From Roseospira marina (lineage in GTDB: Bacteria > Pseudomonadota > Alphaproteobacteria > Rhodospirillales > Rhodospirillaceae), in the NCBI RefSeq assembly GCF_014197855.1, contig NZ_JACIGJ010000010.1, positions 91,466 to 155,465 of the forward strand: 64,000 nucleotides of DNA. Direction: 5' to 3'. Both the position numbers and the translations under genes were made by a program. Each line of letters begins with the position of its first letter. Position 1 is the first letter of the stretch. Shown here in pieces: positions 21,214 through 55,478 of this stretch. The notes under the pieces are model-generated. The model saw only the letters and a program-made list of their open reading frames with translations. It was not told the origin of the DNA and made no database searches.

Positions 21214-21714
21214 ATGCGCATCCTGGGGCTGGATCCGGGCCTGCGGGTCACGGGCTGGGGCATCGTGGAGGCGGCGGGCAACCGCCTGTCCCACATCGCC
21301 GACGGCGTCGTGACCAGCGACGAGCGGGACTCGCTGGCCGCGCGGCTGGCGCAGCTCCACGACGGCGTGATGGCGGTCATCGACCAGTTCGCCCCGGCCG
21401 AGGCGGCGGTGGAGGAAACCTTCGTCAACCGCAACCCGGTCAGCACCCTGAAGCTGGGGCAGGCGCGCGGCGTCGTGATGCTCGCTCCGGCGCGCTGCGG
21501 CCTGCCGGTGGCGGAATACACCCCGAACGCCATCAAGAAGGCCGTGGTCGGGCGCGGCCATGCCGAGAAGGCCCAGGTCGAACTGATGGTGCGCACACTG
21601 CTACCCGGAGCCGACCCGGCGCGGGCGGACGCGGCCGATGCGCTCGCCGTCGCCATCTGTCATGCGCACCTGCGGGCCAGCCAGCGGGCGCTCCTTGCGG
21701 GAACCACCCGATGA
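21214..21714 (+). CDS. ruvC: Holliday junction resolvase RuvC
   Basis: A 166-residue RuvC. The four catalytic acids are present: D7 in [13 protein letters not shown]67/E68 in AAVEETFVN, and D139 and D142 in [14 protein letters not shown]. The dimeric enzyme cuts four-way junctions held by RuvAB. The gene overlaps ruvA by four bases (ATGA), so the pair is translationally coupled. The start ATG at 21214 follows a GGGACGGAGC purine stretch. Confidence 0.97.
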
Positions 21715-22352
21715 TCGCGGCCCTGCGCGGCATCGTGCTGGAGGCCGGGGAGGACGGGCTGGTCCTGGACGTGCACGGCGTCGGCTATCTGGTGTTCTGC
21801 TCCGGGCGGACGCTGGCGCGCCTGCCCGCGCCCGGCGGCGAGGTCGCCCTGGTGGTCGAAACCCAGGTGCGCGAGGACCACATCCACCTGTATGGCTTCA
21901 TTGATGCCCTGGAGCGGGACTGCTTCCGCCTGCTGTCCACCGTGCAGGGGGTCGGGGCCAAGGTCGCGCTGGCGATCCTGTCCGTGGTGCCGGCGGAGCA
22001 GATGGGCCGTGTCTTGGCCGCGCAGGACAAGGCCATGCTGACCCGCGCGGCGGGGGTGGGGCCGAAGCTGGCCGGGCGCATCGTGGCGGAGCTGAAGGAT
22101 AAGGCCGCGCGCTTGGGCGCCCTGCCGGTGGCGAGCCCGGCCGGAGTGGCGCTGCCCGATGTGCCGGCCGCGACCAGCGCCGGACTGGCGGGCGGTGTGG
22201 TGGACGATGCGACCTCCGCCCTGGTCAACCTGGGTTATGGCCGCGCCGAGGCCTGGACCGCCGCGTCCGAAGCCGCATCCGCCCTGGGAGACGCCGCCAC
22301 CGTCGAAACGACGCTGGGGGAAGCATTGCGGGCGTTGGGACGGGGGGAATGA
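21711..22352 (+). CDS. ruvA: Holliday junction branch migration protein RuvA
   Basis: A 213-residue RuvA. Domain I begins [28 protein letters not shown]. The two helix-hairpin-helix motifs are at [18 protein letters not shown] and [21 protein letters not shown]. The C-terminal domain III ([18 protein letters not shown]) normally contacts RuvB. The gene is intact. In most relatives ruvB follows within a few bases; here an AT-rich insert of about 2.3 kb separates them. Confidence 0.97.
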
Positions 22353-22573
22353 AAGGCTATCGGATTATTCCCATTTCAAAATCAGCGCGAAACTTTAAGG
22401 AGAAATGAACCTGGAAAACCCTTATTAGGATCTGCATGCCTGAACAGAATTCGATGGCGATATCGTTGCATCAGATGTACCTTTAACATGTCAAATTAGC
22501 TCAGTGCGAGGTTATTTGGTCGACTTTGAACAGCCTCTGTCTTTCGAATTCTGAAGGCGGCCTCACTTGGGTT

Positions 22574-22579
22574 AAGGAG
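22574..22579 (+). promoter_or_regulatory. Ribosome binding site that fixes the ATPase start
   Basis: AAGGAG lies 6 bases before the ATG at 22586. This makes that ATG a better start than the in-frame TTG at 22526, which has no such site. Confidence 0.75.
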
Positions 22580-22585
22580 CGACAA

Positions 22586-24551
22586 ATGGTAACGCGACCT
22601 GGAATTAACGGAAATTTTGATTTCTCACTGTACTCGTATGCGACGTCTAGAGTAATTGAACGATTTTCAGAATATTTTTATGTGACAAGATCAAATAAAC
22701 CTATTAGTATTAATAATAGTAAATACGAATTTATTTTAATGAGAACTTCAGATGATTTAGCTCTTTCGCTCAATGTCGAACGAGAAATAGCAGTTGTTTT
22801 TGCTGATTACGAAACATTTGAAGCGCGCACCCTATCTACTTACGACTATATTTATCAAATATTTGATGATAACAGAGTCGAGAAATCACTTCGCTTTCTT
22901 GTCAGTAGAGATCAAAATATAAAAGATAGCATCAGCCTTTACTGCAGCCAGGAGCCAGAGTACCCAGTTGTTATACCGTTTAAGTATGATGATTTTGAGA
23001 TAATAAACAAAGATGTAATTTCTAGCGCAATACGAAGAAACTATCTGACGCGCGACTTATTTGGCCACCAATCGCCACTAAAGCAAGAATATTTCTTCTT
23101 CGGGAGAAATAATCTTGCAACAGAGGTAATCGATGAACATAAATCTGGTCAAAATAGTGGTTTATTTGGACTTAGAAAGAGCGGCAAAACCTCTACTATT
23201 TATGCAATACAGCGTCGCGCGAGAACATTGGGGGCAAAAACCTTATTTATCGACTGCCAAGACCCTGCGGTTTATGGAAAAAAATATAGCGAACTACTAG
23301 AATACATTGTAAGAGAATTAAGAAACGAGCTGTCTTTAAAAAAGATTAACGTATCCCTTGGAGAAAAAGAGGACGAAGTATCCGAAAAATTTAGAGAAGC
23401 AATGGCATCTCTTCTTGGACAACTTCGCTCTGATCTTCTGATAATATTTGATGAAATTGAAAACATTTCTCCAAAAACAGCGGCGTCTGAACATTGGCGC
23501 TCAGGTAATGACGCCCTACTATTTTGGCATATTTTGCGCTCATTTTTTCAGAAGCCATCTAAGTACAAAATAACTTTTTGTTTTGTTGGAACAAACCCAA
23601 ATCTATTTGAAGAACCAAAAATAAACGATATAGACAATCCCGTATATCTTTTTGCCCCGAAAACATTTATACCAATGCTCAGCATTGAAGATACAAAAAA
23701 AATGATAAAGAGGCTTTCTTATTTCATGGGCCTTATATTTGATGACAAAGTAATAACAAATATACACTCTATGTTCGGAGGGCATCCTTTTTTTTATACG
23801 ACAACTCTGTAGCAATATACATAAAACCGCACCCCACATCCGACCCGTTCACGTGTCCATAAGAATGTGTGAACAATCCAGACTATCAGCTTGGTCCGAC
23901 ATCAATACCTATGTAGGCCAAATTATTCACTCCTTAAAATCGTTTTATCCTGATGAGTACGAAATGATCTGCTATCTCGCCTCAGGCGATACATCAACAT
24001 TTAATTCCATCGCAATCTCAATGCCTCAATTTACGGAGCACCTAATCGGTTATGGTATTATTGTAAAAAGAGGCGATGATTTCGAATTTTCCTTTGAAGC
24101 TATACTCGATTCCATGAAAAATATTTTAAATTCAAATACATATTACGATGAAAAAAAAGTTCGAATAGAAATTTCCGAGCGGCGAAATTCGGTTGAGGAA
24201 AATTTCAGAACTTTTCTATACTACTGGTCTCTAAATTTAAACGATGATGTATAGATATCAATACTTAATTCTTGCCTTGACGAAAAAACCAGAAATCGAA
24301 TCAACACAAATAAGCGTAATGAATTATTTTCTAGAAACAGAAGTCCACTATATTTTGTTGATTTGATGGCGTTTGTTGACAAATGCTCGGCTCTAGATTC
24401 AACTGAATACACAAAACATGATATTAAATCCGCAATATCCATTGTCAATAAATATAGGATAGATGCCCATGCAAAAACAATAACGAAAAATGAATATGAT
24501 AAAGTAAACAAATCTCTAATCGTTCTTGAGTCGATAACGTCTCCACCATAG
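22586..24551 (+). pseudogene. Defence-type P-loop ATPase with C-terminal HEPN-like region, broken by a frameshift and an amber stop
   Basis: The first frame (22586-23812) has an unknown N-terminal domain (about 1-170), a Walker A (GLFGLRKSGKTS, about 193-203), a Walker B (LLIIFDEIE, about 284-292) and a sensor-like FCFVGTN (about 331-337). After FGGHPFF it runs into a stop. Removing one T from the T8 run at 23788-23795 restores IRQLCSNIHK, the phrase expected after GGHPF in such ATPases. This frame then runs to 24254, where a TAG interrupts it, and continues in frame to 24551. The tail contains SPLYFVDLMAFVDKC and NKYRIDAHAKTI, resembling Swt1-type HEPN domains. The restored length is about 654 residues. 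It could be a dead defence gene or one using slippage and readthrough. Confidence 0.75.
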
Positions 24552-24700
24552 GGATTTATTTCTTTGTACGCAGCCCAGAATAAATATGATTAATCAATGC
24601 AAAAAAAAATGACCGCCTCATTATACTTCCATCCGTTCTTTTTTCTCAAAAAACTTCTTTAGCTACGCCGCCGTATCGCATCCCCCCGGCACTCGGTAGT

Positions 24701-25821
<1,121 letters not shown>

Positions 25822-25825
<4 letters not shown>

Positions 25826-53579: not shown

Positions 53580-55478
53580 TTGGATTTTCTGGTCGCGCAA
53601 TTCCTGAACGGGTTGGCCAGTGCCTCTTCGCTGTTCCTGGTCGCAAGCGGCCTGTCGATCATCTTCGGCGTCACGCGGATCGTGAATTTTGCCCATGGCG
53701 CGTTTTACATGCTGGGGGCCTACCTCGCGTACACGCTCGCCACCCACCTGCCCGGGCCGTTCGGGTTCTGGGTGGCGTTGCCGCTCTCGGCGCTGGCGGT
53801 GGCGGGCCTGGGCGCCCTGGTGGAGATGACCATCCTGCGCCGCATCTATGCCGCGCCCGAGCTGTTCCAGCTTCTGGCGACCTTCGGCCTCACGCTGATG
53901 GTCGAGGACCTGGTGGTCATGATCTGGGGGCCGGAGGACCTGCTGGGGCCGCGCGCCCCCGGCCTGGACGGCGCCATTCCCATTTTCGGGCAGTTGTTCC
54001 CGACCTACGACCTGCTGGTCATCGCCATGGGGCCGCTGGTGCTGTTGGGGCTGTGGCTGCTGTTCCGCCGCACCCGGTGGGGCGTGCTGGTCCGCGCCGC
54101 GACCGAGGACCGGACCATGGTGGCCGCGCTGGGCGTGAACCAGAAATGGTTGTTCACCTCCGTGTTCACCCTGGGCATCTTCCTGGCCGCGCTGGGCGGC
54201 GCCCTGCAGATCCCGCGCGAGGCGGTGCATCACGCGCTCGACCTTCAGGTCATCGTCGAGGCCTTCGTGATCGTCGTGGTGGGCGGCCTGGGCAACGTTC
54301 TGGGCGCGTTCCTGGCCGCCGTGATGATCGCGGAGCTGAACGCCTTCGGCATCCTGCTGTTCCCCAAGATCAGCCTCGTGCTGGTGTTCCTGGTCATGGC
54401 GGCGGTGCTGGTGGTGCGGCCCTGGGGCCTGCTTGGCCGGCCGGAGGCCCACCCGCGCGCCTCGGTCGGGCAGGCGGTGGAGCCCCTGCGCCGGCTCGGT
54501 CCGGCCGGCCTGGCGGCGTCGCTGCTTCTGGCCGGGGCGCTGGCGCTGCTGCCGCTGGTGGCCGGCCCCTACCTGCTGACCGTCGTGACGGAGCTGCTGA
54601 TCTTCGCCCTGTTCGCGGCCAGCCTGCACCTGATGATGGGCGTGGGCGGCATGGTCAGCTTCGGGCATGCGGCCTACTTCGGGCTCGGAGCCTACGGCGC
54701 CGCGCTGCTGGTCCGCTTCATCGGTGCGCCGATGGAACTCGGAATCCTGCTCGGGCCGCTGCTGGCGCTGGCGGGCGGCCTGCTGTTCGGCTGGTTCTGC
54801 GTGCGGCTGTCCGGCGTCTATCTGGCGATGCTGACCCTGGCCTTCGCGCAGATCGTCTGGTCGATCATCTTCCAGTGGTACGAGGTGACGGGCGGGGACA
54901 ACGGCATTCTCGGCATCTGGCCGTCCAAGTGGGCCGCCGATCCGCAGGTGTACTATTATCTCGTCCTCGGGCTGTGCGGGCTGGGGCTGGTGGCGATCCG
55001 GCGCGTGATCTTCTCGCCCTTCGGCTACGCGCTGCGGGCCTGCCGGGACAGCGTGCTGCGCGCCGAAGCCATCGGCATCCACCGCCAGCGCGTGCAATGG
55101 ATGGGCTTCGCCTTGGCGGGCGCGTTCGCCGGGGTCGGCGGCACCCTGTACGCCTATTTGAAGGGCAGCGTGTTCCCCGATGTGATCTCCATCGCCACCT
55201 CGGTGGACGGTCTGGTCATGGTGCTGCTGGGCGGGATCCAGACGGTCTCCGGTCCCATCGTGGGCGCGGCGACCTACAAGGCGCTGTCGATCTACATGAC
55301 CAGCCAGATCGCCTATTGGCAGCTCGTGCTGGGCGGCCTGATCGTGGTGCTGGTGGTCGCCTTCCCCGAGGGCATCGCCGGGTTCTGGCAGCGACAGGTG
55401 GGGCCACGGCTGCGCGCGCGTCTGGGCGCGCGAAGAGCCGGGGAGCACACGCCCGAGGACTGGGAGGCGGCGCCATGA
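53580..55478 (+). CDS. Fused LivH-LivM branched-chain amino acid ABC permease
   Basis: A 632-residue membrane protein containing two permeases normally encoded separately. The N-terminal half (about 1-290) is LivH-like (GLSIIFGVTRIVNFAHGAFY, VVVGGLGNVLGAFLAA). The C-terminal half (about 310-632) is LivM-like (LHLMMGVGGMVSFGHAAYFG, RACRDSVLRAEAIGI, VMVLLGGIQTVSGPIVGAA). The start is a TTG at 53580 with GGAGG 8 bases upstream. It overlaps livG by four bases. The substrates are branched-chain amino acids, amides or urea by family knowledge. No periplasmic binding protein gene lies within the operon. Confidence 0.92.
   Translation: MDFLVAQFLNGLASASSLFLVASGLSIIFGVTRIVNFAHGAFYMLGAYLAYTLATHLPGPFGFWVALPLSALAVAGLGALVEMTILRRIYAAPELFQLLATFGLTLMVEDLVVMIWGPEDLLGPRAPGLDGAIPIFGQLFPTYDLLVIAMGPLVLLGLWLLFRRTRWGVLVRAATEDRTMVAALGVNQKWLFTSVFTLGIFLAALGGALQIPREAVHHALDLQVIVEAFVIVVVGGLGNVLGAFLAAVMIAELNAFGILLFPKISLVLVFLVMAAVLVVRPWGLLGRPEAHPRASVGQAVEPLRRLGPAGLAASLLLAGALALLPLVAGPYLLTVVTELLIFALFAASLHLMMGVGGMVSFGHAAYFGLGAYGAALLVRFIGAPMELGILLGPLLALAGGLLFGWFCVRLSGVYLAMLTLAFAQIVWSIIFQWYEVTGGDNGILGIWPSKWAADPQVYYYLVLGLCGLGLVAIRRVIFSPFGYALRACRDSVLRAEAIGIHRQRVQWMGFALAGAFAGVGGTLYAYLKGSVFPDVISIATSVDGLVMVLLGGIQTVSGPIVGAATYKALSIYMTSQIAYWQLVLGGLIVVLVVAFPEGIAGFWQRQVGPRLRARLGARRAGEHTPEDWEAAP

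Follow-up and report, generated by a model that had tools for sequence, protein, structure and literature searches.

A broken STAND/HEPN-like gene in an AT-rich insert between ruvA and ruvB of Roseospira marina

Introduction

What is the conspicuously AT-rich DNA that separates ruvA from ruvB in Roseospira marina, and how did it come to lie there? We addressed this question in a 64,000-nucleotide (nt) stretch of contig NZ_JACIGJ010000010.1 (hereafter the window), which belongs to a draft genome of 4.6 Mb in 57 contigs. An earlier note on this DNA had proposed that an insert split the normally contiguous ruv operon and carried a single gene for a P-loop ATPase with a HEPN-like tail, a domain pair known from abortive-infection systems. 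Our analysis indicates that the AT-rich stretch is probably a single-gene cassette, likely of horizontal origin, holding one damaged gene; undamaged relatives of this gene are predicted to encode a STAND-type ATPase fused to a HEPN-like nuclease domain, and their likely role is to abort phage infection.

Results

According to the list of open reading frames (ORFs) and Pfam matches, ruvA ends at position 22352 and ruvB begins at 24701, leaving 2348 nt between them. This interval (22353-24700) has a G+C content of 36.5%, compared with ~70% for the window: in 400-nt windows G+C drops from 0.70-0.75 to 0.31-0.38 and recovers to 0.66-0.73, and the interval contains the sole 1-kb stretch below 50% G+C in the 64-kb window (500-nt steps). 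G+C at third codon positions (GC3) is 0.26-0.36 in the insert and 0.86-0.91 in four neighbouring genes, and codon-adaptation scores computed with the window genes as reference are 0.17-0.22 versus 0.70-0.75. The AT-rich insert described earlier is thus real and foreign in both GC3 and codon adaptation, its right border being placed only within 24655-24700.

How the insert arrived is less evident from its borders. Among the repeats listed (12 direct families and 25 of 32 inverted pairs), none of at least 10 nt pairs the two borders, shorter target duplications falling outside this search. The insert holds no integrase, with no ORF above 96 residues besides the pieces of the gene described below; no ORF other than those pieces is big enough for a transposase, and no other phage gene was seen. 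On integrases and repeats, these results agree with the earlier note. The competing explanation that survives best, though we consider it rather unlikely, is that the insert is what remains of an integrative element or a prophage that had its attachment site at the ruvA 3' end, lost its integrase and left a cargo gene behind. The insert begins immediately past the ruvA stop, as such an origin would have it, and some relatives of the gene adjoin the integrases of islands and prophages. However, the missing border repeat (within the limits of that search) and the lack of any further phage gene argue against a remnant, as do the different, integrase-free sequences that fill the same site in two other species of the genus (genomes G001 and G004).

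The insert contains one gene, in pieces. Its longest ORF (22586-23812, from an ATG) shares 70% identity with P0002, an Azospirillum brasilense protein of 655 residues, and because two further pieces (~23796-24254 and 24255-24551), both in a different frame from the first, align with the rest of the homologue family, we read the three, which match intact homologues of ~655 residues end to end, as one gene broken twice. The lesions are a frame change in a run of eight Ts and an in-frame stop (Table 1). The earlier claim of a single gene therefore stands, with the amendment that this gene is broken. Since it is broken, the window copy need not act in the R. marina strain, and it is most likely dead cargo there. 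We give little credence to the alternative that the gene is functional, its lesions being sequence errors or being bypassed by slippage at the T run and read-through of the stop: there are just two lesions, every motif is retained despite them, and a T run is a plausible site of slippage or error, but the two lesions differ in kind, and internal stops are absent from all 29 copies of full or nearly full length that were translated from other loci.

The homologues define an uncharacterised family of ~655 residues, for which we predict, from sequence and modelled structure, an N-terminal alpha/beta domain spanning about residues 1-160, a STAND/Orc-type ATPase and a C-terminal HEPN-like domain. 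Walker A and Walker B motifs lie within a P-loop ATPase fold, as in STAND and AAA-type P-loop ATPases, and the Pfam AAA_22 match exceeds its cut-off (Table 1). With the fold match to STAND/Orc-type proteins, this upholds the earlier identification as a P-loop ATPase; homology to a protein of another kind was not borne out. The curated nSTAND1 model scores 12.7 bits on the window piece and at most 19.0 in five homologues, and nSTAND6 scores 13.3 and at most 18.4; all of these fall short of the cut-off, so the label 'STAND-type' is given by fold alone. A survey of the HEPN superfamily (PMC3710099) lists an Rx4-6H motif and, in many families, a second acidic residue in an Ex3[KR] motif; the latter motif is present here, E27 and R31 being invariant (E-x3-R). 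A sequence search found no solved structure, and PADLOC Avs models were absent from the matches of seven homologues. The C-terminal 141 residues of P0002, used as a query, recovered only P0002 itself and missed even known homologues, so this search is too insensitive to speak to other architectures.

The junction between ruvA and ruvB has a history of its own. We counted the genes as adjacent when less than 200 nt apart and scored the 62 of 73 genomes of the taxonomic family that have both; the 11 without a match for one or both were dropped, including one of the genus (G005), which has no ruvA match and a ruvB cut by a contig end. Adjacency holds in 53 of 57 genomes from other genera, in line with the earlier note's assumption. 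Of the four others, G046, G054 and G066 have a partial match. In G010, from another genus, ruvA and ruvB lie on separate contigs (loci L127 and L128), well inside each. Within the genus of R. marina no checkable species keeps the genes adjacent (0/5; Fisher p 2e-5, the species being related and not five independent trials).

Adjacency is missing from all five checkable species, and no two of them are arranged alike, which makes the junction a recurrent breakpoint in the genus and not the event of one gene. The broken STAND/HEPN-like gene occupies it in the window strain, DUF4160 and DUF2442 genes in 910 nt in G001 (L032 4243-5152), and a PAS-GGDEF gene in 1596 nt of 67% G+C in G004 (L035 4622-6217); neither of the latter fillings resembles the window insert, and no integrase was seen in them. 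DUF4160-DUF2442 pairs may resemble toxin-antitoxin modules. In G002 and G003, ruvA and ruvB are on different contigs with different neighbours (L034 14634-15213; L033; L042), and G003 has mazE and mazF ~0.4 kb upstream of ruvB on the opposite strand. DNA homology of the genus relatives to the window ends near the ruvA end (Table 1) and restarts near the ruvB start (24730-24748). The loss of ruvA-ruvB adjacency across the checkable species is a new observation, and it modifies the earlier idea that the operon was used as an insertion point: the gene is absent from all 39 other relatives searched with the ATPase piece, none of them carrying it here at normal composition, but the operon was not split by this gene alone.

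Elsewhere the gene is sparsely scattered. A search with the window ORF gave 502 matches at E 1e-3, P0002 included, and among the 120 listed the nearest named homologues are alphaproteobacterial. With P0002 as query, one of 384 other genomes of the class carries a copy at E 1e-60, and neither of two other genomes searched from the family of that single copy has the gene. A genome scan yielded 77 loci, of which we counted 31 as family members (L045-L075) and 46 as distant (L076-L121), with L052, L053, L072 and L073 at contig ends; neighbours were picked mechanically as the nearest ORF of at least 100 residues, so smaller genes are skipped. The gene is lower in G+C than its flank in all 31 family loci (mean difference 0.15), and its deficit reaches at least 0.10 in 23 of 31, compared with none of the 66 other long ORFs picked mechanically from these loci. 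In L045 and L046 the gene is flanked by a phage integrase on one side and by a restriction gene (Mrr or GmrSD) on the other, and in L061 it follows an N6-methylase (HsdM-type) gene. Relatives occur in 2 of 5,426 Escherichia coli genomes, both 97 nt from a tyrosine recombinase and amid decayed phage genes; in two viral contigs, together with tail or replication genes; and on 21 of 72,556 plasmids, 16 of them over at least 80% of the query. Such a distribution suits a mobile accessory gene and, taken together with the predicted domain architecture, a putative defence gene.

Details of individual loci add to this picture. The E. coli copies (L131 12001-14001, L132 6001-8001) adjoin yjjG, the former lying between prfC and yjjG. 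In the viral contigs (L129 4885-6909, L130 4983-6983) the gene is lower in G+C than the contig stretch, and one copy is ~3 kb from baseplate genes; the other has a DNA methyltransferase on one side and an antiterminator-Q-like gene on the other. The gene also occurs in a Chloroflexi genome bin (L057 1226-3835, 6172-6872), where it follows the gyrA 3' end and has a putative small nucleotidyltransferase-HEPN-like pair on its opposite side.

Adjacency of relatives to uvrA or uvrB is far above chance. The nearest ORF on one side is uvrA in L050, L051 and L055 and uvrB in L047 (where the scanned fragment is part of uvrB), L054 and L074, and uvrB lies ~2 kb from the gene in L048. Thus 7/31 family loci hold uvrA or uvrB versus 1/46 distant loci (uvrA; p 0.006), or 6/31 versus 0/46 when only adjacent genes are counted (p 0.003), against ~0.2 loci expected from gene density in genomes assumed to be 4.5 Mb, though the pattern was spotted post hoc, after inspection of the loci. 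The gene sits at the uvr 3' end in all six adjacent cases, convergent in five and on the same strand in L047, 563 nt after uvrB. On the tree, the uvrB placements call for three or more independent origins and the uvrA placements for one or two. The space between uvrB and the gene in L047 (7438-8000) may hold a small toxin-antitoxin-like gene.

These placements bear on a further alternative, that the family is not antiviral but a STAND-type regulator or a DNA-repair accessory acting with Uvr or Ruv proteins and hence found beside their genes. The uvr neighbourhoods with their repeated origins, and the position of the window copy inside ruvCAB, speak for such a role, but we judge it improbable: an operon shared with uvr is not evident, given the convergent cases and the gap in L047; the fetched flanks (some of them cut short) lack any uvr gene in 24 of the 31 loci; a repair factor has no need to be rare and mobile among prophages and plasmids; and the association was noticed only after the fact. 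Less probable still is the bolder proposal that a roaming STAND-HEPN suicide enzyme prefers DNA-repair genes (uvrA, uvrB, ruvAB) as neighbours and protects them, sensing phage attack on the repair machinery or its overload and answering by RNA cleavage, with the ruvA-ruvB junction as one docking site.

Table 1 Features of the ruvA-ruvB region, in window coordinates
Feature	Position	Strand	Evidence
ruvC (left flank)	21214..21714	+	Pfam RuvC 4.7e-49
ruvA (left border of insert)	21711..22352	+	Pfam RuvA_N, HHH_5, RuvA_C; genus DNA homology stops at 22306-22346
AT-rich insert	22353..24665 (right end uncertain, 24655-24700)	+	G+C 0.365 (22353-24700) vs ~0.70; sole such patch in window
AT-rich leader of cassette, no gene assigned	22353..22585	+	G+C 0.42-0.50 in 50-nt steps
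Piece 1: predicted N-terminal alpha/beta domain and STAND/Orc-type ATPase, 408 residues	22586..23812	+	Pfam AAA_22, 29.4 bits, cut-off 27 (with 20 residues upstream of ATG)
Walker A, GLRKSGKT	23168..23191	+	Sequence; invariant in 28 homologues
Walker B, LLIIFDE	23435..23455	+	Sequence; D289 and E290 invariant in 28 homologues
Eight-T run with frame change (first lesion)	23788..23795	+	
Piece 2: end of ATPase module and start of C-terminal domain; in-frame stop 24252-24254 (second lesion)	23796..24254	+	Start set at end of T run
Piece 3: rest of HEPN-like domain and the gene's own stop	24255..24551	+	Homologue alignment
HEPN-like motif N-K-Y-R-I-D-A-H (R-x3-H)	24447..24470	+	N, R and H invariant in 27 homologues
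ruvB (right flank)	24701..25825	+	Pfam RuvB_N 4.8e-79, AAA_lid_4, RuvB_C

Promoter-like sites in 22300-24800 number 10 against 7.5 expected, and no terminator was found there. LexA-type boxes (GTTC-N7-GTTC, at most one mismatch) were considered and set aside: the window has 45 against 40.6 expected, and its sole perfect box, at 54297, is distant from the ruv genes.

Discussion

We regard a phage-triggered sensor-nuclease as the likeliest function of the family, given its architecture, its mobility and some of its neighbours. The N-terminal and ATPase modules of an undamaged protein would keep it inactive until it binds a signal of infection; assembly powered by ATP would then unite the HEPN-like tails, which would cut RNA (tRNA or mRNA) and stop the cell.

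Several observations weigh against a defensive STAND-HEPN protein broken in this strain. HEPN entries rank first when the tail of a relative is compared by fold with a second-look aligner, which together with the invariant R and H bears out the tail proposed earlier, but only at middling Z, and Foldseek with the tail alone gave no significant match. The R-H spacing is R-x3-H in 27 of 27 aligned homologues, not Rx4-6H. PADLOC and NCBIfam models gave no good match (best E ~0.002 and 0.007, respectively), and we found no description of the family, which has no name to search by, among the papers that our searches listed. None of 50,697 phage records carries the gene, and many relatives stand alone among housekeeping genes, outside defence islands. 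The lesions, moreover, could in part be sequence errors of the draft assembly.

Comparison with known systems places the family near, but not within, described groups. STAND-ATPases fused to HEPN domains appear in the Abi2/Swt1 group of the HEPN survey (PMC3710099), and they resemble the present family in that a single bacterial polypeptide combines a STAND-type ATPase with a HEPN or a HEPN-like module; as described there, however, they also bear TPR and S1, whereas no such repeat matched in our family, and their R-H spacing is 4-6 rather than 3. The same source describes RloC as activated by virus-induced DNA damage. In RloC and PrrC an ATPase module restrains a HEPN nuclease, as we predict here, but that module is of ABC type, not STAND/Orc type. 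Avs3 and Avs4 (AVAST; Foldseek matches 8dgc and 8dgf) are likewise single large proteins with a STAND ATPase core, but these entries have 2004 and 1541 residues, compared with 655 and a C-terminal effector-like domain here. Avs proteins have an N-terminal effector, a STAND core and a large C-terminal sensor, as PMC12724215 describes for Avs2. We rejected membership of Avs for our family, with its 655 residues of which the C-terminal 145 are HEPN-like. The archaeal ATPases 2qen and 2fna share the ATPase and winged-helix core (residues 165-512 of the model), but their aligned part lacks the HEPN-like tail. GiPD474 of a Gifsy prophage is described as a ParA-like AAA ATPase in PMC12724215.

For the genus, we suggest that ruvA-ruvB adjacency may no longer be under selection, and that accessory modules would therefore settle and turn over at the junction, the window copy being one that is decaying. 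The dissolution of a conserved recombination operon in all five checkable species offers a natural experiment on whether it matters that ruvA and ruvB stay coupled. For the protein family, our data add an unannotated candidate defence family outside the scanned PADLOC and NCBIfam models, whose gene in several loci has only housekeeping genes around it and would there escape island-based searches. Its uvr placement, if upheld in a full survey, would tie an abortive-infection-type gene to DNA repair.
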